This document shows, one piece after another, positions 362 to 20,523 of a stretch of DNA of 20,523 bases. The notes under the pieces are model-generated. The model did no database searches, was not told the origin of the DNA, and worked only from the letters and a program-made list of their open reading frames with translations. The DNA comes from a virus. Position 1 is the first letter of the stretch. Each line of letters begins with the position of its first letter. The DNA lies in IMG/VR virus record IMGVR_UViG_3300045973_000193, positions 1 to 20,523 of that record, one strand, 5' to 3'. The position numbers were made by a program, and so were the translations under genes.

Positions 362-1630
362 ATGTCTGCTTTGAATATCCCGATTGGGCACCCACTAGCC
401 GCTAAGGTCTTTGGTGCCGCAGTCTTCGCCGCCGTTCAATCCGAACCCGGCTTTATGAATCTCTTGTCGGGCGGCGCCCCGGATCTGTCCGGCGCAATGT
501 CCAAGGTCAAGGGCCAAACATCTCCTGACTATCCGATCGTCAAGGTGACCGATCTGAGCAAGTCTGCCGGCGACACCGTCTCCGTCGACCTGTTCAACAT
601 CTTCACCGGCAAGCCGATCATGGGCGACAAACGCCTGGCCGGTCGTGGCATGAGCACCTCGTCCAGTTCCATGGACATCCGTATCGACCAGTCCCGTGGC
701 CTGGCTGAAAACGGTGGCAAGGTTACGCAAAAGCGTACCAAGCACAACCTGCGTCAGATCGTCCAATCTGGCCTGACCAACTGGGCCTCCCGCCTGGAAG
801 ATCAGCGCTGCCTGGTCGCCCTGGCCGGTGCCCGTGGTTCGCAAGCGACCGTCGATTGGGTCGTGCCGCTCCAGTCTGATCCGGAGTTCGGTGACGTTAT
901 GGTTAATGCCGTGCAGGCACCGACCAAGAATCGCCAGTTCTATGCGAACAACGCGACTCGTCCGAATGACATCGGTACCGACGACTGGCTCTCCCTGCGT
1001 GACATCGAGCGTATCTCTGCCCTGATGAAGGACAGCAACGTCCCGTTGCAGGCCGTCAAGATCAAGGACGACAAGTACGCATGGAACCAACCGCTGTACG
1101 TGCTGTTTGTCACTGAACGCCAGTGGGCCTACCTGAAGCGTTCTGCGCTTACGAATAACGCCTACAAGGAAGCACTAACCTACGCGACCAAGCGTTTCGA
1201 CGGCCAGAAGCACCCGTTGTTCATGGGCGATTCCATCATGTGGGCAGGCATCCTGATCAAGCCGATGGGCCGTTACGCCATCCGCTTCGATGCAAACGAT
1301 ACCATCACCTACGCAACGTCAGCCACTGACGCCACCGGCACCGCTGAGGCTTGTGCCGTCCCGGTCGACCGCGCCATCCTGGTGGGTGCCCAAGCACTGA
1401 TCAAGGCCTACGGCAACGAAGGTACCAGCGATTACTTCTACACCTGGAACGAAGAACTTGTTGACCACAAGAACTCCGTTGAAGTCTCCCTGGCCATGAT
1501 GGACGGGGTCGCCAAGACCCGCTTTACCATCAACGGCACGCTGACGGACCACGGTGTTGCGGTCATCGATTCCTACGCGCCGGATCTGGCGTTGCCGGCT
1601 GGCCAAGCGCTGTTGGCCCAAGCTAGCTAA
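362..1630 (+). CDS. Major capsid protein, N4 gp56-like (DUF4043-type) family
   Basis: A 422-residue protein with the composition and length of the N4 gp56/P22-type major capsid family, recognised by eye from its overall pattern. Supporting features are the N-terminal SALNIPIGHPLAAKVFGAAVFAAV segment (written here only to show its hydrophobic character), the SGRGM-like stretch near residue 93-98 (LAGRGMSTSSS), a conserved-looking helix around residues 120-155 (KRTKHNLRQIVQSG then LEDQRCLVALAGARG), and a C-terminal part with VDRAILVGAQALIKAYG. In this family the protein forms the HK97-fold icosahedral shell. The start is firm: AGGAGG at 348-353 lies 8 bases before the ATG. A perfect hairpin follows the stop, as expected for a very highly expressed gene. 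No sign of frameshift or truncation. Confidence 0.85.
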   Translation: MSALNIPIGHPLAAKVFGAAVFAAVQSEPGFMNLLSGGAPDLSGAMSKVKGQTSPDYPIVKVTDLSKSAGDTVSVDLFNIFTGKPIMGDKRLAGRGMSTSSSSMDIRIDQSRGLAENGGKVTQKRTKHNLRQIVQSGLTNWASRLEDQRCLVALAGARGSQATVDWVVPLQSDPEFGDVMVNAVQAPTKNRQFYANNATRPNDIGTDDWLSLRDIERISALMKDSNVPLQAVKIKDDKYAWNQPLYVLFVTERQWAYLKRSALTNNAYKEALTYATKRFDGQKHPLFMGDSIMWAGILIKPMGRYAIRFDANDTITYATSATDATGTAEACAVPVDRAILVGAQALIKAYGNEGTSDYFYTWNEELVDHKNSVEVSLAMMDGVAKTRFTINGTLTDHGVAVIDSYAPDLALPAGQALLAQAS

Positions 1631-7519: not shown

Positions 7520-7962
7520 TGTCCTACTATGTCCGTCAATCTGACAATGTCGTCATGCATATCAATGAAGTCCGCCTGGCCAACCCTCGGGTTTCCTTGC
7601 CCGACGGCGGCGATCTCCCCAGCTACGTTAAGCTCACCGAGACGGCCAGACCTGCAGCGCTCGAGTGGCACACCGTACAGCAGGCTGATCCGATCGATAA
7701 TGTGCAGCAGTGGGTACAGGTGCCACTGAGCGCAGCCGCCATCGAAGCAAATATCACCGCCGAGTTGGAACACTTCTTCGACAGCAAGGCGCAAGAGCGA
7801 CGCTACGATAACCGGATTACCTGTGCGATGCGTGCAGGATACCCGGGTCCGTTCCTGGCAGAGTGCCGCGCCTTCGCGATGTGGATGGACAGCTGCAACG
7901 TGTATGCCTACGCAAACCCAGGCAGCGACCTGGTCGCCAGGCTCCCAGCCTTGGAGTGGTGA
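7519..7962 (+). CDS. Small tail fibre assembly-like protein
   Basis: A 147-residue protein with two parts. Residues 1-75 follow a pattern common in fibre-associated proteins (YVRQSDNVVMHINEV, SLPDGGDLPSYVKL, WVQVPLS). Residues 80-147 are helical and match a family seen next to many fibre genes: EHFFDSKAQERRYDNRITCAMRAGYPGPFLAECRAFAMWMDSC by its conserved K-A-Q-E-R-x-Y-D, GYPGPF and AF-x-W-x-D-x-C positions. In other phages such proteins are labelled tail fibre assembly or chaperone-like. It starts one base inside the stop of the spike-like gene and is followed one base later by the nozzle/hub candidate, so it is probably a coupled helper for one of the fibres. Confidence 0.6.
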   Translation: MSYYVRQSDNVVMHINEVRLANPRVSLPDGGDLPSYVKLTETARPAALEWHTVQQADPIDNVQQWVQVPLSAAAIEANITAELEHFFDSKAQERRYDNRITCAMRAGYPGPFLAECRAFAMWMDSCNVYAYANPGSDLVARLPALEW

Positions 7963-7963
7963 C

Positions 7964-9568
7964 ATGCCGATCATCAACATCAACCAGTTCGGTGGTGTCT
8001 CTCCGCGAACGCCGCCCCGCTATCTGCCGGACACCGCCGCGCAACAGGCGCTGAACTGCCCGGCCTGGCTGGGTTCGCTCAGTGGGCTACCGGGGACAGT
8101 CAAGACCGGCAACACCACGCGAACTAATGTCCAGACGCTGTACCGGTACGGGGAAAGTGCCCGATTCTGGTTCGAGTTCACTACCGATGTCGATGTCGTG
8201 CGTAGCGCGATTGCGGGGGATGACTATGAGCGGACGTACTTCACGGACGGTGTGAAGCCGAAGAAAACAAACAACGTCCTGGCTATCGGGGCAGGGGGGC
8301 TGTATCCCTCAGCCGCCTATGACCTGGGCGTACCCGCCCCATCGCATGTTCCGGTTCTGGTCGTTTCCGGTACCAGCACAGCGGTACCTGAAGAACGAAT
8401 CTACACGGACACCTTCGTTACCGGCGACGGCTGGAAGGAAGAGTCGCAGCCGTCGGGCGCCTCGGCCCAAGTCTCGGTAGCCTTCGGCCAGGCCGTAACG
8501 CTCCAATCGTTTGCCAGCATCCCGACCGGTAATCACAACATCAAGTATCGGCGCATATATCGACTGGCGACGGGGACAAGCAGCAGTGAATACCTATTCG
8601 TCGCGGAGATCCCGATCACCCAGACCAGCTACGTAGACACCAAGCTGGCCGCCGACCTGGGTGAAGTCTGCCCGTCGATCGACTGGAACACGCCACCCGA
8701 TGACCTGAAAGGCCTTGTCTCCTTACCCGGTGGCGGGATGGCGGGATTCTCCGGTCGCGATGTCTATTTTTGTGATCCTTACCACCCTTTCGCTTTCCCC
8801 GCGAAGTATGTCCAGACCGTGGATTATCCGATCGTCGGCCTGGCCGTCATGGATACCACCCTGGCGGTGCTAACAACAGGTGTGCCGTACTTCATGCAGG
8901 GCGCGCACCCGGACTCCATCGCGGTCATCAAATCCGACATCCAGCAAGCCTGCGTGTCTAAGCGATCTATCGTCGCAATGAATGGCGCCGTGATCTATGC
9001 GTCACCCGACGGGCTGGTAAAGCTCGCCTCAAATGGGTCAGGGGTTGTTACTGAGGCAATGTTCCGGCGTGATCAGTGGCAGACAATTGGTCCCGCCGCT
9101 GTCCGTGGCTACCAGTGGGAAGGCAAGTATGTGGCCTTCTTCGATACCCTGGTCGGCAATGCGCGCGGATTCGTTTTTGACCCAAGCAGTAGCACCCTGG
9201 TCTGGCACGATATCCAAGCAACGGCAGGCTACAACGATCTGGTCAACGACACCCTGAGCCTCGTTATCGGCAACGAGATACACGAGTGGTACGCCGGGGC
9301 ACCGAAAGCCTACACCTGGCGAAGCAAGAAATTTATGCCGCCCTATCCGCTCCCACTAACCATCGGCCAGGTTAACGCCGAGGCTTACCCGGTGACGTTC
9401 AAGCTGTATCGAGATGGACTATTAGTCCAGACGAAGGTGGTTACTGAGCGTAATCCTTTCCGGCTTGTGCCGGGCCGCTACACGGACGTTGAGTTTGAGA
9501 TATCCGGCACCAACGAGGTCTTCGGTGCCTGTGTGGCAACTTCTGTTTCGGAGCTGAAAAATGGCTAG
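7964..9568 (+). CDS. Putative tail nozzle/hub protein (beta-propeller-like)
   Basis: A 534-residue protein starting at ATG 7964. A longer frame opens at 7823 but lies inside the preceding gene and is rejected. The N terminus (INQFGGVSPRTPPRYLPDTAAQQALNC by its key residues F-G-G, P-R, LPDTAAQ-A-NC) is the pattern of a podovirus protein family whose members occupy the T7 gp12/tail nozzle position. The body is rich in beta strands and repeated blade-like segments (GGMAGFSGRDVYFCDPYHPFAFPAKY, LAVMDTTLAVLTTGVPYFMQG, NGAVIYASPDGLVKL, WEGKYVAFFDTLVGNARGFVFD), as in a beta-propeller. It ends with an 8-base overlap with the fibre gene. I am confident it is a virion protein and less sure of the nozzle role. 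Confidence 0.55.
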   Translation: MPIININQFGGVSPRTPPRYLPDTAAQQALNCPAWLGSLSGLPGTVKTGNTTRTNVQTLYRYGESARFWFEFTTDVDVVRSAIAGDDYERTYFTDGVKPKKTNNVLAIGAGGLYPSAAYDLGVPAPSHVPVLVVSGTSTAVPEERIYTDTFVTGDGWKEESQPSGASAQVSVAFGQAVTLQSFASIPTGNHNIKYRRIYRLATGTSSSEYLFVAEIPITQTSYVDTKLAADLGEVCPSIDWNTPPDDLKGLVSLPGGGMAGFSGRDVYFCDPYHPFAFPAKYVQTVDYPIVGLAVMDTTLAVLTTGVPYFMQGAHPDSIAVIKSDIQQACVSKRSIVAMNGAVIYASPDGLVKLASNGSGVVTEAMFRRDQWQTIGPAAVRGYQWEGKYVAFFDTLVGNARGFVFDPSSSTLVWHDIQATAGYNDLVNDTLSLVIGNEIHEWYAGAPKAYTWRSKKFMPPYPLPLTIGQVNAEAYPVTFKLYRDGLLVQTKVVTERNPFRLVPGRYTDVEFEISGTNEVFGACVATSVSELKNG

Positions 9569-13142: not shown

Positions 13143-14201
13143 ATGGGATTTTTTAGTGACCTCTTCGGCGGGGGTGATAGCCAACCCGCACCAGACTATA
13201 CCCCCCTGGCCAACGCCAGCAAGGAGTCTGCCGAGATCGCAGCGAAGCTAGGGCGCGAGCAACTGGCTGAAAACACGCGCCAGTACGATAAGAATATGGC
13301 GGTAGCCGCCCCTATTATCGAAAAGCAAGCTGGCCTGATGGACCAGCAGATCACCCAGGGCGACGATTATTTCAACTACAACAAGAACACTTTCCGGCCG
13401 ATCGAGCAGGGGCTAGCGGACGAAGCCCAGACCGGCGTCTCCCGCTATGCGACCAACGATGGCGTCAAGGCAGCCGTCGAAGAAGAAGCCACCCGGGCAG
13501 GGGCTGACCAGTCGCGTGCCACCGAGAACATGCGCGACCAGAACATGCGCGCCATGGAAGCGATGGGGGTCAATCCGAACTCAGGTAAGTTCGCCGCGAT
13601 GAAGACCAGCGAAGGCCTGGCCTCAGCTGCATCCCGTGCCGGTGCGGTGACCGGATCGCGGCAGAAGGGTGTCGCACTGGACTACGCCAAGCGGATGGAC
13701 GTGACAGGGCTGGGACGTAACCTGACCGGTGCGTCACAAGGCGCCTACGGCCTGGCCAACGCGGCAGGTAACAGTGCAGTGGCGAACCAGAACGCTACCT
13801 CGGGTCAGTACATAAACGGCATGACAGCAGGCAACGGCACGATCATGCAAGGGCAGGGCCTGCAATTGCAGGGGCTGAGCAATATCGCCAGTGGTCAAAC
13901 CTCGACATACAACGCCGGTCTTGCCGCAGCCGCCTCCCGCTCGAACGGTATGATGAGCATGGTTGGCGGGGCCGTCGGCCTGGTGGCATCCGACATCCGG
14001 CTAAAAGAGAATATCGTCAGGGTTGAGGGTGGCGAAATCCCGATGTACGAGTTCAACTATATCGGCCAGCCCGATACCCGCTTCCGTGGCGTCATGGCCC
14101 AGGATGTCCTAAACGTCAGGCCTGAAGCGGTCGGCGTTGCGCCAGATGGGTTCATGTACGTTAACTACGGCCTACTCGGCATTGAAATGGTGGAGGTTTA
14201 A
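13143..14201 (+). CDS. Internal virion-type protein with C-terminal peptidase S74 chaperone domain
   Basis: A 352-residue protein. It begins with a short amphipathic MGFFSDLFGGG and then a long Ala/Gln/Asn-rich helical body (residues 20-275) of the kind found in podovirus inner-core proteins (AEIAAKLGREQLAENTRQYD, NMRDQNMRAMEAMGVN). Residues 283-352 are a peptidase S74 intramolecular chaperone domain. S283 and K288 in SDIRLKENI form the Ser-Lys dyad, followed by YEFNYIG, FRGVMAQDV, P-E-A-V and the closing Y-V-N-Y-x-x-L. In fibres of other phages this domain trimerises, helps folding and cuts itself off just before the serine. The AGGAGATT SD (13132-13139) lies 3 bases before the ATG. It is followed 2 bases later by another internal-protein candidate. 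The body role is inferred; the S74 domain is seen. Confidence 0.75.
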   Translation: MGFFSDLFGGGDSQPAPDYTPLANASKESAEIAAKLGREQLAENTRQYDKNMAVAAPIIEKQAGLMDQQITQGDDYFNYNKNTFRPIEQGLADEAQTGVSRYATNDGVKAAVEEEATRAGADQSRATENMRDQNMRAMEAMGVNPNSGKFAAMKTSEGLASAASRAGAVTGSRQKGVALDYAKRMDVTGLGRNLTGASQGAYGLANAAGNSAVANQNATSGQYINGMTAGNGTIMQGQGLQLQGLSNIASGQTSTYNAGLAAAASRSNGMMSMVGGAVGLVASDIRLKENIVRVEGGEIPMYEFNYIGQPDTRFRGVMAQDVLNVRPEAVGVAPDGFMYVNYGLLGIEMVEV

Positions 14202-14203
14202 TC

Positions 14204-15418
14204 ATGGGATTCATGGATGGCTTGGCCTCTGGAATGGCTGCTCGCGACCACTGGGACAGTAAAAAGCGCGATGAGGATCTTCGCTCCGGCTTAGCCGATG
14301 CAAGCAACAACACCCGGATCGAGCAGGACACGAAGCTCACCCAGAAGAACGATAGCCCGAACATGGTCTATGACGACCAGTCAGGGGAGATGATCCCAAA
14401 AGGTGGGTATGTCCCGGCCGACGATCGCGCTACGGAGCCAGGGCGATACGACGGGCTATCCGACGCACGAAAGGCAGAACAGCTGGCCGCCAACGAGCGC
14501 GGAGATGTTGCTCTTACCAAACCGGAATTCGACAGCAAGACAACCTACCGAGTACGTGGCAGCGAGTTCGCGGACAAGGCAGCCGCTGAGTCGGCACTCC
14601 CTGGCCTGCGTGACGCCGCCATCACGGATGTCTACCGCAGCAAAGGACTTGTTGATAAGGCGAGGGATTATGAGACAGGGGCAGTACAACTGGATTCGGC
14701 CAAGCTCTCCTTGAAAGGGGCTAGGCGAACTGACGAACTAGGTGAAGCAAACCAGGGAACCAACATGGCCCTGGCCAAGCATGCCTTTGAGATACTCCCC
14801 GCTAAGTTACATACCGACATGATTAACGGTCTTGTTTCGCGGGAAGAAGCGGCCCGGAAGATGGCGGGGGCCATCGGGCTGGTCGCGGAGTACAACCCTG
14901 AGCGGCTAAATGACATGGTCAGTAGCGGGGATATCCAGAAAATATCACCCTTCATGGCGAACGTGGCTGACGTGTCGCGGGAAGGTAATCATCTCGTCTT
15001 CAAGAATAAGGACGGGGGGATAGCTGCGAAGTACACAACCAAGAGCCTGCATGAGTACAGCCAAGGCGGGCCTGCACCAATGAAGATCCGGGACGTTGCG
15101 CCGGGTGCCAAGGTTATCGGTATCGACCCGAGGACCAGCAAATCGACGACCATCGCCGAGGGCACGCCAGACCCGACGAAGAATGATGCGAGACAGGATG
15201 ACGCTGTCGCCGTCATGACAAGGCTGCTGGATGCGAACAAGACAATGATGACCCACTTCGGTGGGGACGAGCAGAGCATTAGGCAGGATTCCGTGCTCGA
15301 ACACGCTAAGGATGTCGGTGAATTTAAGCGGAAGATGGGCAGGGCACCGACCCTCGAAGAGGCAGCAGTCCTTGCGGACGGTGCTTTCAAACGAGCAACA
15401 GCGCGATATAAAAAGTAG
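14204..15418 (+). CDS. Putative internal virion (ejection) protein
   Basis: A 404-residue protein with no recognised domain. The start MGFMDGLASGMAARDHW resembles the MGFFSDLFGGG start of the preceding protein, and GGAGG at 14191-14196 supports this ATG. The sequence is strongly hydrophilic and largely helical: charged helices at about residues 40-60, 85-120 and 145-215 (AKHAFEILPAKLHTDMINGLVSREEAARKMAGAIGLVAEYNPERLNDMV by its helical pattern). A beta-rich segment follows (NHLVFKNKDGGIAAKYTT, KVIGIDPRTSKSTTIAEG), and the C-terminal helical part ends LEEAAVLADGAFKRATARYKK. Its place between the S74 protein and the giant transglycosylase protein matches the middle protein of three-protein ejection sets such as T7 gp14-gp15-gp16. 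No homology to gp15 is claimed. Confidence 0.6.
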   Translation: MGFMDGLASGMAARDHWDSKKRDEDLRSGLADASNNTRIEQDTKLTQKNDSPNMVYDDQSGEMIPKGGYVPADDRATEPGRYDGLSDARKAEQLAANERGDVALTKPEFDSKTTYRVRGSEFADKAAAESALPGLRDAAITDVYRSKGLVDKARDYETGAVQLDSAKLSLKGARRTDELGEANQGTNMALAKHAFEILPAKLHTDMINGLVSREEAARKMAGAIGLVAEYNPERLNDMVSSGDIQKISPFMANVADVSREGNHLVFKNKDGGIAAKYTTKSLHEYSQGGPAPMKIRDVAPGAKVIGIDPRTSKSTTIAEGTPDPTKNDARQDDAVAVMTRLLDANKTMMTHFGGDEQSIRQDSVLEHAKDVGEFKRKMGRAPTLEEAAVLADGAFKRATARYKK

Positions 15419-15437: not shown

Positions 15438-15467
15438 GATACTCCGGGGCACTAGCCCTGGAGTATC
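15438..15467 (+). promoter_or_regulatory. 13-bp-stem hairpin burying the SD of the giant gene
   Basis: GATACTCCGGGGC (15438-15450) pairs with GCCCTGGAGTATC (15455-15467) around an ACTA loop, with a single G-U pair in the stem. The 3' arm contains GGAG (15460-15463), 7 bases before the ATG at 15471 and the only good SD for that gene. Folded, the hairpin would hide the SD and end 3 bases before the start codon. No U tract follows, so it is not an intrinsic terminator. A translational switch is the simplest reading. Confidence 0.65.
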
Positions 15468-15470
15468 AAG

Positions 15471-18400
15471 ATGCCACTTACCTACGAAGATTCCGCCTAT
15501 TTATCCGCTAACGCGGAGGATGTAGATAAACAAAAGAGCAAGGTAGCTACCAACCTGGATGCCATCCTTGAATCGGAAGGCGCCGGCCACCTAAAGCCTG
15601 TTGTCCAAGCAATCTACGGCCAAGAATCCGGGTCTGGCAGCAACAGCTCGACCAGTACGGATGGCGCCCGAGGCGGCATGCAGATCATGCCCGGAACCTT
15701 CAAACGCCTAGCTCGCGACGGTGAGAGCATAGACAACCCAGACGACAACATAAGAGTGGGCGCTCGGCTGATTAAGCAGCTCGGCGACAAGTTCGGCAAC
15801 GACCCAGCCCGTATTGCGGCCGGTTATTTCTCAGGTGAAGGTAACGTCAGCCCATCCGGTGACCTAGCCTATAAGCAAGACCACGCAGACGGCAACGGTA
15901 AGCGCGTCTCCAGCTATGTGCAGGATGTACTCGGTCGGCTCATCCCGTCCGCCCAGGCTAACGATGGCCTGGAGGTGGCCCGCCAAATCGCAGCGGGGGG
16001 AACCAGCAACGATAAAGGCCTCGACTTGGCTCGGCAAATCGCCAGCGCGGGCATGCCCGCGCCGGTCGCTGAGGCACCCAAGGAAGAGAGCCTCGGCAGC
16101 CGCCTGCTTGCTGAGCTCAAGCGCGCCACCACCGGCGCAGTGCAGAATCCCGCGCAGCTGCCCCGCCCGGAAGGCATGACCGAGAAGACATTCACCGCAG
16201 GCGACCCGGATGCAGCTGCTGCGCCCGGTACCCTGCTGGATGGGTACCAAGCCGACCCCAATGCCCCATCAAAGAACGTCAGCGGCCTACGTGCCGACGC
16301 CGAATCAAAGTTCCGTAACCTGCTCAAGGATCTGCCGCCAGCCCGCCTGGCGAAACGAGCGGAAGAGGGTGGCCTGATGGGTCAGGTTGCCGGGAAGATG
16401 TTGGTTGAACAGCAGGAATACCAGGCCAAGGTACAAGCAGGGCTCACCCCGACAATGGCTGAGGATGCACAGGCCGGGCGCCTACCCAAGGGGAACGAGA
16501 CTGACTACCTCGGTGACCGTGGGAAGGAACTACTGGCAGGTACGTATGGCCTCGGCCAGGCGGGTGCGTGGATCGCCCAAGATCCGATTAAACGAACGCC
16601 GTTGATGGTTGCCGGCGCGGTAGATGCCTTGGCTAAGAAGTACGGAGAACTGTCGGGTGACCTAATGACACCGGATAAGCAAACACTCCTTCACTCGTAC
16701 CTGGTCGACTGGGCAAAACAATCTGGCACCGATCCGGACAGTTTTCTAGCTGTGCTTGAGCAGGCTTACCAGAAGAAAGCTCAGGAAGTTCGTGACACGC
16801 TATCTGACGGGACCAAACAAGGACGTAAAAACATCACGGACGCACAAGGTGCAACAGCAACGATCAAGGCGATCTTTGACAATCCGAACGGTTTTCTCTC
16901 AACGCTTACCGAGTCGATCCCTGGTACCTACGCCGGCATGGGTGCGGCCCGCGCCGTTGGTGCTGGTGCTGCCAAGTTCAGCATGGGCTCGGTAGAAGAA
17001 GCTGGGCAGAAGGCCTTGCTCGAAGCAACAAAGAATGGTTCGGTGTGGAGCCAAGGGGCTCGCTCAATTGTCAACGAGGCACGTACTGCCGCTGCCGAGA
17101 AGTCAATCATGGGACCAGCTACGGCCGCCGCAGTTGGTACCGAAGCCGCGCAGTCCCTCGGCCAAACCGGCTCAGATATAAAGCAGTCGGTGCTCAGCGC
17201 GCCGCTCAGCGATCTCGGGAAGTCTCCGGAGTTCCGGGCGCTGGTTGATGGCGGGATGCCGGTCGATCAAGCACGCCAAGTTTTCGCGGAGGTACTGTCC
17301 GATTCTTACGCGCCGATCGCCGGGGTGGGCACCTTGGCCGGCAGCATCGCGTCAGGCGGCGGCAAAGCGACTGCCGAAGCCGCGCTTGGCAAGGTCGGGA
17401 CACTGAAGGATCTCGGCCGTATCGCGCACAGCGAGGGCAAGGAAGAGCTCTACCAGGGGCCAGGTGAAGGCATAGCCAACGTGGAAGCGACTCGCCGCCG
17501 GGGCGGGAAGGCCGACTATGATTTCCTCGGTAACGGTATAAAGAACTATCTGAGCGGTGCGGTGATGGGCCTGGTTGGTGAAGGCGCCCCTAGCTATGCT
17601 GCGAACAAAGCTGGCCAGATCAAACAGGGTCCGGCAATCACCCCGAATCAGGAACAAGCACGTACTGCTCCGACCGCCACCGGCCAAACGCCACAACCGC
17701 GACAGCAGCCGGCTGATGTCGCAGACCCACTGGCCGACGCCCCGTTGACCAGCCCCATCGCAGATGAACTTTTACAACTGGAAGGACTTACCAATGAACA
17801 AGAAGCAGGCAATGGCACAGGCGGGACTGGCGACGGTCCTGGAGGATCAACGGGAACTCAAGAAGCTGGGCAGCAGGGCAGCGCTGGCCCGGCACGAGAA
17901 GAAGGAGTCGCCCAAGGAAATGAAGCGGGAGGGGGAACGCTCGCCGGCACACCGCTAGCCAACCATAACCAAGCCAGCCTGAATCTGCTCGCCGCTGCTC
18001 ACCCGGACCCTGTTGTTCGGGAGCAGGCAGCGGTCGCGCTGCAGACGCCGAAGATCGAGACGCAGACGGTACAGACCAAGAACGGTCCGGTACAATATGA
18101 CATCTCAGCCGACTTGAAAGGAACGCTAGATGACAAGATCATTCGAGGACTACAACGCAATGATGGCCAACGAATCACCCTCGCCACGCCGCAAGCACTT
18201 CAGTCCTTCCTCACTAGAACCGGCCCCGTCTCCTCCGAACAGTTCGCCGAACTCGTCCGCGCAATCAGCGGACGCGAAACCGTCGTCGTTGGTAACGCCG
18301 GATTCGCCGGCGCCGTTGTCAAGTCAGACACCCAGCACGTCTTCCTGAGCCAAGAGCAGACTGGGCTGGCACTGGCCCAGACTGCTTTCCATGAAGTACA

Positions 18401-20523
18401 TCATGCGCTGGTCACCGACCACCCCGACCTTGCCCGGTTCTGGGGCGATGCGGTCGATATGCACCTGGATACCAGCGACACGGGCCTGTTGCATTTCCTG
18501 GCAACGACGTATGGCGACAGCCACTTCCAACTGAAGCTGATCAACGCCCGGCGCGCGGCCGGCGAGTCAGCCACCGAGATCCTCGACGATCTGCTCACCA
18601 CCCATGCCCGCGCCGCGCGCTATGAAGCAGAAGGCCACGGTACCCGCCGCGACTGGGCACATGAAGAGATGCGGTCCGACGCACTGGGCGATGCTGCCAA
18701 CCGTGATGGCGTGGTCCGCAAGGCACTGGACTACATGGCCAAGGTCGACATCGGCGTGGTCAAGCAGTTTGCCCAGTTCGTGCAGGGTATCCTGAAGAAG
18801 ATGGACGCCGCCTTCGGCAAGGGAAGCAACACCGATGCAGAGGTTCGCGCTCGCCTGGAAGCCCTGAACGCCGCCGCTTCCGAAGTGCTGGGCAAGTATG
18901 CTAGCCGCACCCAGAACCAGAAGCGTATGCAGTCGGCCACCGTGCCCGAGCTGCTGCTGATCCAGAAGTCGCACCCGGATGACGTGGTCCGCGACATGGC
19001 CGGGGCTCGTCTGAAGGAGGTCGAGAAGGAAGCCGCCTACACACAGAAGGAGCAGCAGAAGGCGGACGAGAAAGCCAAGTTTGCACAGGGTCAGAAAGAC
19101 AATAAGGTCGAGCAAGCCGAGGCTGAAGCCAAAGCGGCCGGTACCGACGACGGTACGCCGACGGCCATGCAGACCGCCCTGGCTGCCGCTAAAGCGAAGG
19201 CACGGGAGCGTGTCGCCAAGGACATGGCCAAGGCTGCAGCAACCGCTGAGCTCCGGAAGAAGATCCAGGACCGGGCGACCAAGCGCGCCGAGGAAAGCGC
19301 CAAGGTCCGGAAGGCGACACTCGACGACAACGAGGTCGGGATGTTCGCACCGAAACGCAAGGTGGGTGAGAAGCCGGGTGAGTCGACGCTGAAGACCGAG
19401 CTCGAAGGGGAGAAGGTCAAGGCCTTCGGTTTCGACGTGAGCCGAGGCACGATCGCCGGGGCACCCGGCTTTGCTCATTCCGTTGCCGACATCAAGAAGC
19501 AGATCAAGATGGCCGCAGATGACGCGATGTCCGACCGCGCCCACCCCGAGGATGCGGTGTGGTACCGGGAAGCCGGCCGTGCCATCCGTGAGTATTCTCA
19601 TGGGGATCTGGCCCTGCAGGAGAAGCTAGTCCGCTTGGTGGCCAAGGGGTCCCAAGCCTCCGGTGTCGATTCAAACGTGACCAGCGTGATCAAGGCTGCG
19701 TACCAGATTGCCAAGGGCGAGACGCCTGCCGTTGGCCGCTACCCGAACAAGTTTCGGGAGGGCTTCGCCCACTTGATGGACACCCCCGTCTTCGACAACA
19801 GCATGACCGGTATCGACAGCAAGCTGCAGAACTTCTACCGCAACCTGCATGACGAGGCCTTCCAGAAGAACGAATGGCCGAATGCAGCGGTTATTGACCG
19901 GCACGCCATCGGCTACCTCTGGAATAACAAGGCAAAGACGACCGTTGATTCGGATGCCCAGTACGCCTATGCCGAGACGATCATGCAGAAGGCAGCAGCG
20001 GAGTACAACAAGCGCAACGGAACCAAGCTAAAACCCCGCGATATGCAAGCCCTCCTGTGGGGCTGGTGGAAACGGATGGACGCAGCGGCCGAAGCGGAAG
20101 CAAGCGGCGAGGAGTACAAGGCTACCGGCACCGCATGGAATTACCCTGAGTTCTTCGAGCGCGCCACCGCGAACGTGACCGCCGAGGTGCTGCCTTCGAC
20201 CCAAGTATCCCAGCTTGACCTGAAGCTGTCTTCCGCTGACAAGTTGAAATTCCAGAAGGAAGCGCTCGACCTTATATACAACGAGGACGGCTTGAACGAG
20301 CTGGCCAAGCGTAGCGGCCTGGTGCTCTACACCGAGCAGGAGAGCACGGGCGGCTACGACAACAAGATCAACCCGAACCATGTTACCGGTGCCATCTCCC
20401 CGAAGATCGCCAAGGAGTCTGGGTCGGGAGAGCCGTACCACCGTTACACCTATGACGCCATCGACCGCTACGCCCTGGCCTGGCAGTACATCTACAAGCA
20501 GGACGGTGTGCCTTGGTTCCGCG
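15471..20523 (+). CDS. Giant polyvalent internal/ejection protein: lytic transglycosylase, HExxH metallopeptidase and C-terminal conserved phage domain (3' truncated)
   Basis: Open from ATG 15471 to the window end, at least 1684 residues without a stop. Residues 40-130 are a soluble lytic transglycosylase domain: catalytic E52 in GQESG, GGMQIMPGTF at 68-77 and AAGYFSGEGNV at 116-126. It would cut peptidoglycan for DNA entry. Two LARQIA-type repeats follow (about 169-174 and 184-190). Residues 480-705 hold Gly/Ala-rich helices (GTYAGMGAARAVGAGAAKF, NGIKNYLSGAVMGLVGEG), possibly membrane-inserting. A Gly/Gln/Pro-rich linker spans about 715-825. A metallopeptidase has HEVHH at 974-978 and EEMRSDALGD at 1065-1074, as in polyvalent phage proteins. 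A coiled coil covers about 1175-1300. Residues 1360-1520 form another conserved domain (SQ, GRYP, IDRHA). The GGAG SD is inside a hairpin. It is probably packaged and ejected as the third internal protein. Confidence 0.85.
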   Translation, partial: MPLTYEDSAYLSANAEDVDKQKSKVATNLDAILESEGAGHLKPVVQAIYGQESGSGSNSSTSTDGARGGMQIMPGTFKRLARDGESIDNPDDNIRVGARLIKQLGDKFGNDPARIAAGYFSGEGNVSPSGDLAYKQDHADGNGKRVSSYVQDVLGRLIPSAQANDGLEVARQIAAGGTSNDKGLDLARQIASAGMPAPVAEAPKEESLGSRLLAELKRATTGAVQNPAQLPRPEGMTEKTFTAGDPDAAAAPGTLLDGYQADPNAPSKNVSGLRADAESKFRNLLKDLPPARLAKRAEEGGLMGQVAGKMLVEQQEYQAKVQAGLTPTMAEDAQAGRLPKGNETDYLGDRGKELLAGTYGLGQAGAWIAQDPIKRTPLMVAGAVDALAKKYGELSGDLMTPDKQTLLHSYLVDWAKQSGTDPDSFLAVLEQAYQKKAQEVRDTLSDGTKQGRKNITDAQGATATIKAIFDNPNGFLSTLTESIPGTYAGMGAARAVGAGAAKFSMGSVEEAGQKALLEATKNGSVWSQGARSIVNEARTAAAEKSIMGPATAAAVGTEAAQSLGQTGSDIKQSVLSAPLSDLGKSPEFRALVDGGMPVDQARQVFAEVLSDSYAPIAGVGTLAGSIASGGGKATAEAALGKVGTLKDLGRIAHSEGKEELYQGPGEGIANVEATRRRGGKADYDFLGNGIKNYLSGAVMGLVGEGAPSYAANKAGQIKQGPAITPNQEQARTAPTATGQTPQPRQQPADVADPLADAPLTSPIADELLQLEGLTNEQEAGNGTGGTGDGPGGSTGTQEAGQQGSAGPAREEGVAQGNEAGGGTLAGTPLANHNQASLNLLAAAHPDPVVREQAAVALQTPKIETQTVQTKNGPVQYDISADLKGTLDDKIIRGLQRNDGQRITLATPQALQSFLTRTGPVSSEQFAELVRAISGRETVVVGNAGFAGAVVKSDTQHVFLSQEQTGLALAQTAFHEVHHALVTDHPDLARFWGDAVDMHLDTSDTGLLHFLATTYGDSHFQLKLINARRAAGESATEILDDLLTTHARAARYEAEGHGTRRDWAHEEMRSDALGDAANRDGVVRKALDYMAKVDIGVVKQFAQFVQGILKKMDAAFGKGSNTDAEVRARLEALNAAASEVLGKYASRTQNQKRMQSATVPELLLIQKSHPDDVVRDMAGARLKEVEKEAAYTQKEQQKADEKAKFAQGQKDNKVEQAEAEAKAAGTDDGTPTAMQTALAAAKAKARERVAKDMAKAAATAELRKKIQDRATKRAEESAKVRKATLDDNEVGMFAPKRKVGEKPGESTLKTELEGEKVKAFGFDVSRGTIAGAPGFAHSVADIKKQIKMAADDAMSDRAHPEDAVWYREAGRAIREYSHGDLALQEKLVRLVAKGSQASGVDSNVTSVIKAAYQIAKGETPAVGRYPNKFREGFAHLMDTPVFDNSMTGIDSKLQNFYRNLHDEAFQKNEWPNAAVIDRHAIGYLWNNKAKTTVDSDAQYAYAETIMQKAAAEYNKRNGTKLKPRDMQALLWGWWKRMDAAAEAEASGEEYKATGTAWNYPEFFERATANVTAEVLPSTQVSQLDLKLSSADKLKFQKEALDLIYNEDGLNELAKRSGLVLYTEQESTGGYDNKINPNHVTGAISPKIAKESGSGEPYHRYTYDAIDRYALAWQYIYKQDGVPWFR

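Follow-up and report, generated by a model that had tools for sequence, protein, structure and literature searches.

The viral DNA record IMGVR_UViG_3300045973_000193 is a linear IMG/VR fragment of 20,523 bases, identical to the stretch analysed here (the window), and it ends inside a giant open reading frame preceded by genes for virion proteins (Table 1). Because the record stops within this frame, the C-terminus of the encoded protein, called the giant below, is missing. Its first 1684 amino acids (aa) comprise a lytic transglycosylase (SLT) domain, a Gly/Ala-rich helical segment, a low-complexity linker, a region with a HEVHH motif, a charged stretch and a further conserved domain. The frame probably encodes the N-terminal part of a giant virion protein from a Bcep22/933W-like podovirus, one that would be synthesised late, carried inside the head and ejected along with the DNA; delivery into the host together with the DNA is proposed by analogy with a relative present in virions. 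The giant is best read as a new, mosaic phage polyvalent (ejected) protein, at the position where Bcep22-like podoviruses carry a DarB-like giant. Within it the wall enzyme is firm, the entry module is supported by homology, the protease is plausible and a DNA-related domain is possible.

The wall enzyme and the N4-type segment

An earlier note on this DNA, made from its letters, had described a single open frame of at least 1684 codons, and indeed no stop interrupts it from its ATG to the end of the record. The probability of such a run by chance is about 1e-23 at the giant's base composition (61% guanine plus cytosine, GC), and the GC content by codon position keeps a coding pattern throughout. 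The motifs then listed, E52, GGMQIMP (68), HEVHH (974-978) and EEMRSDALGD (1065-1074), lie where they had been placed.

The assignment of an N-terminal lytic transglycosylase, also claimed in that note, is firm as a prediction by homology. The Pfam SLT model scores 51.1 bits against a cut-off of 21.3, and the domain presents the features of SLT family 1: the predicted catalytic E52 (YGQES, 15624-15626) lines up with the glutamate in the RQES motif of solved Slt enzymes, GGMQIMP is aligned too, and GYFSG follows at 118. One solved Slt entry, 6fcq, has Gln at the position equivalent to E52 and is taken to be an inactive mutant. A 200-aa piece with the domain matches phrog_35577 (E 6.4e-19), and SLT domains near the start of large frames were also found in the loci L002, L003 (together with LPD39 and an HExxxH motif) and L004, as well as in phage BcepMigl. 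By tblastn the whole giant gave no match to phages at 1e-5; a search of genome contigs with the whole protein gave three loci, matching the SLT part only.

The Gly/Ala-rich, channel-like helices of the earlier note are present as a stretch with 28-37% Gly+Ala per 60 residues across aa 481-720, and the sequence evidence supports homology of aa 465-674 to the N-terminal domain with which the N4 virion RNA polymerase (vRNAP) binds membranes. Landmarks of this segment are KSPEFRALVDGGMP at 584 and SEGKEELYQ at 654. A 413-aa piece (aa 331-743) matches positions 112-433 of phrog_2206, which correspond to the N-terminal region of N4-type vRNAP (E 5.1e-6), while three control copies, one reversed and two shuffled, were all blank. 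With a profile of three vRNAP N-termini, N4 residues 308-401 align with the window stretches SPEFRALVDGGMPVDQAR and EGKEELYQG (hhalign E 2.3e-5, probability 76%; reversed profile, E 0.37), and a profile of 11 vRNAPs gives E 8.5e-5 and probability 60% (reversed window, E 0.31). The raw hhalign scores were 44.9 and 48.4, whereas the best among 100 shuffles was 22.9 in the first case and 22.8 in the second (0/100). Moreover, a hidden Markov model (HMM) of the 11 vRNAP N-termini covers aa 465-674 at 15.4 bits, a score reached by none of 1000 local shuffles (maximum 6.3). In the N4 preprint this domain is reported to insert into nanodiscs, with putative membrane-spanning helices at 224-278 (PMC12633501); by the range of the HMM, the matched segment should span their counterpart.

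The segment recurs in giants encoded at the same place in other phages. A profile search of viral contigs with the head-closure protein of the window gave at least 600 stretches, with 587 of 600 encoding relatives. From the best 80 loci, which were kept, 32 were chosen by eye for a long forward frame downstream of the head-closure gene that ran to, or almost to, the end of the stretch; loci ending too early, tail-fibre-like frames beside the match and the near-duplicate L063 were excluded. With the window this syntenic set holds 33 N-terminal parts, and with the giants of BcepMigl, PEp14, CF418P1, phiARM81mr, L013 and L101 it reaches 39. The 11-vRNAP HMM finds 15 of the 39 at a domain E below 0.01, and for 13 of these the whole-sequence E is under 1e-6; when all 39 are reversed it finds none (best 0.95). 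Since six of the 15 (L068, L070, L076, L078, L089, L093) resemble one clade in the alignment, this is not a count of independent cases. Profile against profile, the 11 vRNAPs match a core built from the 32 syntenic giants, window excluded, at E 1e-7 and probability 94%. Among pieces of five other giants compared with phrog_2206, those of L034 and BcepMigl match in the same region, whereas those of L021, L092 and L101 do not, the L092 piece matching phrog_10089 instead.

Several results weigh against an ejected giant with an N4-type module. With all 1684 residues as the target, the N4-type HMM missed the window; it found it only with the 413-aa piece. With composition correction on, the score of the core HMM on the window was equalled or beaten by 114 of 1000 shuffles; with the correction off it rose to 33 bits (0/1000 shuffles), but reversed proteins then scored as well, so that we rely on the N4-built HMM and not on the core HMM. 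The hhalign comparison of the 32-giant core with the window alone is weak (E 0.016), and the giant has no clear transmembrane helix, its highest 19-residue mean hydropathy being 1.05. Furthermore, the phage is known from a metagenome-type record alone, the whole protein has no match at E 0.01 to the DarB-like family phrog_10089, and its first 1684 aa match neither a Pfam LPD domain nor any zincin model at the cut-off.

A different role in entry can be conceived, that of a structural ejection protein like T7 gp16, which would build a wall-crossing channel and stay in the envelope with no cytoplasmic effectors. The SLT piece matches positions 33-160 of 1235 in phrog_342, an internal virion protein with endolysin domain (E 6.9e-11), which we take to be the T7-type protein; Gly/Ala-rich helices follow the SLT, and the second gene upstream resembles a DNA ejection family. 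The phrog_342 match, however, is limited to the SLT, the middle of the giant resembles N4 vRNAP, and DUF7178-type domains, like the one at the end of the window, occur in polyvalent giants with enzymatic effector domains. This makes a purely structural protein improbable, and an ejected polyvalent protein is preferred.

The HEVHH region and the C-terminal domain

The zincin metallopeptidase proposed for the region around aa 974-1074 stood the analysis only in part: the motif is there, the profile similarity is no better than that of shuffled sequences, and the fold model is poor. HEVHH (18390-18404) is followed by a candidate third ligand, E1065/E1066 (18663-18668), of which E1066 lines up with a conserved Glu of the neighbours in the comparison, and the plan of the window (HEVHH at 974, EE at 1065-1066) fits theirs, an HExxH or HExxxH and then a conserved Glu. 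Counting the window, 16 of the 33 syntenic giants contain one of the two motifs, whereas 500 rounds of shuffling gave 0.55 on average and never more than 3. One of these giants, L021, has a segment similar to the HExxH part of phrog_2206 (E 3.6e-9), which makes at least that domain N4-like.

Alternatively, HEVHH could be a chance motif in another domain; the chain would then combine a wall enzyme with an entry module and a DNA-related domain but lack an internal protease. An HExxH arises in 2.8% of shuffles of the giant, so that the motif alone is weak evidence. The profile score against the zincin-like segments of the syntenic giants and N4-type vRNAPs was reached by 39 (broad) and 98 (narrow) of 1000 shuffles, and by 160 and 146 of 1000, respectively, when HEVHH was kept in place; hhalign gave E 0.11 off the motif and E 0.14 at it. 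No homolog of the region was found in 50 related records, a search that had no positive control, nor by peptide scans of viral and genome contigs, and a tblastn search of 50,697 phage records (E 10) left a zincin by homology unsupported. Two predicted models of the giant were both poor: that of the HEVHH region (mean pLDDT 43.2) was unfit for judging the fold, and with the second (49.5) Foldseek returned nothing at E 0.001, a search given no weight. Among PDB sequences the neighbours' HExxxH profile had a single match (7bqq, E 0.0075). Against chance stand the excess of such motifs at this genomic position, the alignment of E1066, an HExxxH directly before the DUF7178 domain of L151 (see below), and a Pfam Reprolysin_3 match over aa 922-984 (E 0.0089), although its 17 bits lie under the 22.4 cut-off. 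Altogether we lean towards a zincin, mostly from the motif and the neighbours, and hold a chance motif to be rather unlikely.

The further conserved domain that had been noticed could be located at aa 1326-1684, with motifs TGIDSK at 1446 and VIDRHA at 1474. It is shared by the giants of L013 (4442 aa, also with InPase and LPD38), L014 (cut by its record) and L101 (a 4111-aa stop-to-stop frame, also with InPase, RadC and ART). The window itself has no match to DUF7178 (PF23802, cut-off 27 bits), whereas the L013 piece reaches 28.8 bits and L151 57.1 bits; it is the match of a profile of window, L101, L013 and L014 to L151 (E 4e-24) that ties the domain to this family. Among 249 genomes from the phylum of G048 (the Thiotrichaceae metagenome-assembled genome that contains L114), one has DUF7178, in the 3606-aa frame L151. 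This frame is possibly a prophage giant. A literature search found no paper on DUF7178.

HhH-GPD DNA glycosylases have as their hallmark a helix-hairpin-helix, LPGxGxK, and a catalytic Asp (VDTH). This EndoIII pattern, which suggested HhH-GPD for the C-terminal domain, was checked on retrieved sequences. Once L151 was added, hhalign against 31 EndoIII-like proteins aligned LPGVGRK with MTGIDSK of the window and VDTH with IDRH (E 0.0018, probability 15%, 0/150 column shuffles); before that the comparison gave E 0.063 and probability 0.9%, and the window alone E 0.31. The domain has no match to Pfam PF00730 (HhH-GPD), and its profile found nothing below E 0.3 among PDB sequences. A distant HhH-GPD DNA glycosylase is a lead from sequence, to which we would give somewhat less than an even chance.

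Genomic setting and proposed role

Table 1. Features of the giant and of the genes around it in the window
Feature	Position	Strand	Basis
Giant virion/ejection protein gene, first 1684 codons	15471..20523	+	ATG at 15471; no stop before record end
SLT domain, aa 39-137	15585..15881	+	Pfam PF01464, E 1.2e-13
Gly/Ala-rich helical segment, aa 465-674, homolog of N4-type vRNAP N-terminal domain	16863..17492	+	phrog_2206, hhalign, shuffles
Low-complexity Gly/Thr/Gln/Pro-rich linker, about aa 721-860	17631..18050	+	composition
Candidate zincin metallopeptidase region, about aa 903-1125	18177..18845	+	motif only
Charged Ala/Lys/Glu-rich stretch, about aa 1175-1290, putative coiled coil	18993..19340	+	composition
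DUF7178-type polyvalent domain, aa 1326-1684	19446..20522	+	32-36% identity to L013, L014, L101 giants
13-bp RNA hairpin enclosing GGAG, ending 3 bases before the giant's ATG	15438..15467	+	70-base fold -33.7 kcal/mol, z -5.2
404-aa gene immediately upstream of the giant	14204..15418	+	no PHROG match
352-aa virion protein	13143..14201	+	PHROG 'DNA ejection protein' phrog_4287, E 1.8e-11; virion structural protein phrog_8003, E 1.3e-33
Tail fibre, 1174 aa	9561-13085		matches several tail fibre PHROGs
Internal virion/head-closure protein, query for syntenic relatives	7889..9568	+	phrog_511, E 1.3e-152
Major head protein	362..1630	+	phrog_334, E 3.1e-93

The giant gene is encoded among virion genes, as in the definition of polyvalent proteins; upstream of it lie also virion structural proteins (PHROG matches). 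Relatives of the head protein were found in 194 phage records and relatives of the head-closure protein in 165; Burkholderia, Klebsiella, Erwinia, Vibrio and Stx phages are included. No relative of the 404-aa gene was found in viral contigs; by its position it is a candidate ejection partner. The tail fibre contains repeated AEETARATADTALA-type stretches. The 352-aa protein has a terminal DIRLKENI-type segment resembling the chaperone end of tail spikes, presumably the one named S74, and its end also matches the PHROG long tail fibre distal subunit family (E 0.00025). The window has no tRNA and no Rfam match at the gathering score. No T run follows the hairpin before the giant. Upstream folds with z below -3 were found for the giants of two of the 32 relatives (L089, L076; rough shuffles, with the first in-frame ATG taken as the start), from which the hairpin may restrict expression of the giant in some lineages.

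The syntenic giants are only 13-21% identical to the window over the alignment, yet a Gly/Ala-rich segment with EGxxExxQ, followed by a Gly pattern, is common to those aligned. Pfam SLT is found in one of the 33, the window, and InPase in seven; 12 match phrog_10089 and eight phrog_2206, some of the latter possibly through the HExxH part, as in L021. LPD38 appears in 14 of the 50 records searched, each time in a frame of 1097-4671 aa. Low identity together with recurring segments and motifs indicates that a rapidly diverging giant with shared themes occupies this position. Each of four named phages inspected has a giant gene at the corresponding place: BcepMigl (4658 aa), PEp14 (4914), CF418P1 (2684) and phiARM81mr (3190). 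By Pfam, the BcepMigl giant carries SLT (79-178) and LPD38 above the cut-off, with PBECR1, an Eco57I-type methylase and Helicase_C just under it; that of CF418P1 carries InPase, LPD3 and LPD38, and that of phiARM81mr (stop-to-stop frame) LPD38, ddrB-ParB and a methyltransferase. In phiARM81mr (L017 3972-5605), genes annotated as 23S-intervening-sequence-type and retron-type reverse transcriptase lie inside the structural module.

Lysis genes follow the giant in BcepMigl, PEp14 and CF418P1, and SLT domains also occur in endolysin-labelled families, as would suit a late cytoplasmic or lysis protein that is absent from virions. On the other hand, the giant at the same place in phage JC1, gp69, is listed in the proteomics table for CsCl-purified virions with 51 unique peptides, the highest number of that table, 15.6% coverage and the second rank by score (PMC9144972). 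This finding and the homology to the N-terminal domain of an ejected polymerase leave very little room for a cytoplasmic or lysis protein. They also bear out, together with the giants at the same place in relatives, the suggestion of the earlier note that this is a giant of polyvalent type with a role in entry.

For such an ejected polyvalent protein the following succession can be proposed. The SLT domain, by its homology, would open the peptidoglycan, and the Gly/Ala-rich segment, akin to a lipid-binding domain of N4, would engage the inner membrane or an ejection channel. The remainder would follow through flexible linkers, like beads on a string, as in the model for N4, and act in the cytoplasm. 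There the zincin-like domain, recognised by its motif, could split the giant into functional units or target host proteins; the DUF7178 domain, which may be HhH-GPD-like, could act on DNA. More effectors, perhaps with LPD38 at the end, would probably be encoded beyond the end of the record.

For N4 it is an open question how polypeptides several thousand residues long get through a narrow tail and across two membranes. Tentatively, as a reading less likely than not, we propose that several podovirus lineages use a general entry module at the head of their giant virion proteins, irrespective of the effectors behind it, and that the N-terminal domain of N4 vRNAP is one copy of this module; in the window it would be joined to its own wall-cutting enzyme, uniting the peptidoglycan and membrane steps in one chain, and to a DNA-acting (HhH-GPD-like) cargo. 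If true, the presence of the N4 entry domain in otherwise different giants makes it testable as a common delivery module, and the SLT-fused version would be a natural case of wall opening and membrane entry in a single chain. The DUF7178 lead, if true, would add a DNA-glycosylase-like activity to the injected phage effectors.

Comparison with known systems

With the DarB-like giants (BcepMigl gp69, JC1 gp69, PEp14 gene 27 and the 3764-aa protein of Parlo) the window protein shares giant size and a place after head, tail and other virion genes. Like it, the BcepMigl and Parlo giants have an N-terminal SLT, and those of BcepMigl and PEp14 an HExxH motif and an N4-type module. By BLAST, only the SLT end aligns with the BcepMigl giant (31% over 128 aa). 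Unlike DarB-like giants, the first 1684 aa contain no helicase or methylase match and have a DUF7178-type domain instead; despite the same setting, an identity as a DarB homolog was rejected for want of a phrog_10089 match. T7 gp16-type proteins are likewise large internal virion proteins with a lytic transglycosylase at the N-terminus, a similarity that stops at the SLT.

The earlier note had supposed that the domain set may be new for a podovirus-like phage; it is less new than that. The report on podophage Parlo describes a DarB-like giant that unites an SLT with domains of helicase, methyltransferase and acyltransferase type, such domains having been seen before in Bcep22-like phages (PMC6606913), and phage polyvalent proteins with lysozyme and metallopeptidase domains figure among those catalogued by Iyer et al. 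(2017; PMC5512222). With SLT-fused giants already reported from Parlo and BcepMigl, and the related JC1 gp69 detected in virions, the architecture is largely known; what appears to be new in it is the N4-type entry module common to giant virion proteins.

Like phage-type polyvalent proteins, the giant would combine several unrelated activities in one chain, with a lysozyme-type domain, a possible metallopeptidase and a virion gene setting, and it shares a domain with giants bearing LPD38, InPase, ART and RadC. The SLT, the N4-type module and the DUF7178-type domain provide the two or more domains of unrelated biochemistry by which such proteins are defined, the biochemistry of the last two being presumed. 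The giants of L013 and L101, from uncultured viruses, and the frame L151, from a bacterial genome, resemble the window in the 360-aa DUF7178-type domain, HExxH/HExxxH motifs and giant size; L013 and L101 differ in having no SLT match and another domain order.

The N4 vRNAP (gp50) and its relatives, as presented in the N4 preprint, are giant ejected proteins whose N-terminal module is of this kind, with an HExxH domain later in the chain (PMC12633501). Unlike gp50, the giant has no match to a T7-like RNA polymerase module in aa 1-1684; an identity as an N4-type vRNAP was thus set aside, although the N-terminal domain of that class is there. A full-text literature search, judged by title and the start of the abstract, found no paper linking the N4 entry segment to other giant virion proteins, and the words 'DarB' and 'polyvalent' do not occur in the N4 preprint PMC12633501; the link appears to be new. 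According to Iyer et al., searches with the N-terminal region and the polymerase domain of N4 vRNAP found only a T7-RNAP module of related phages and prophages (PMC5512222). In contrast, a segment homologous to that N-terminal region is found here in giants of another phage group.

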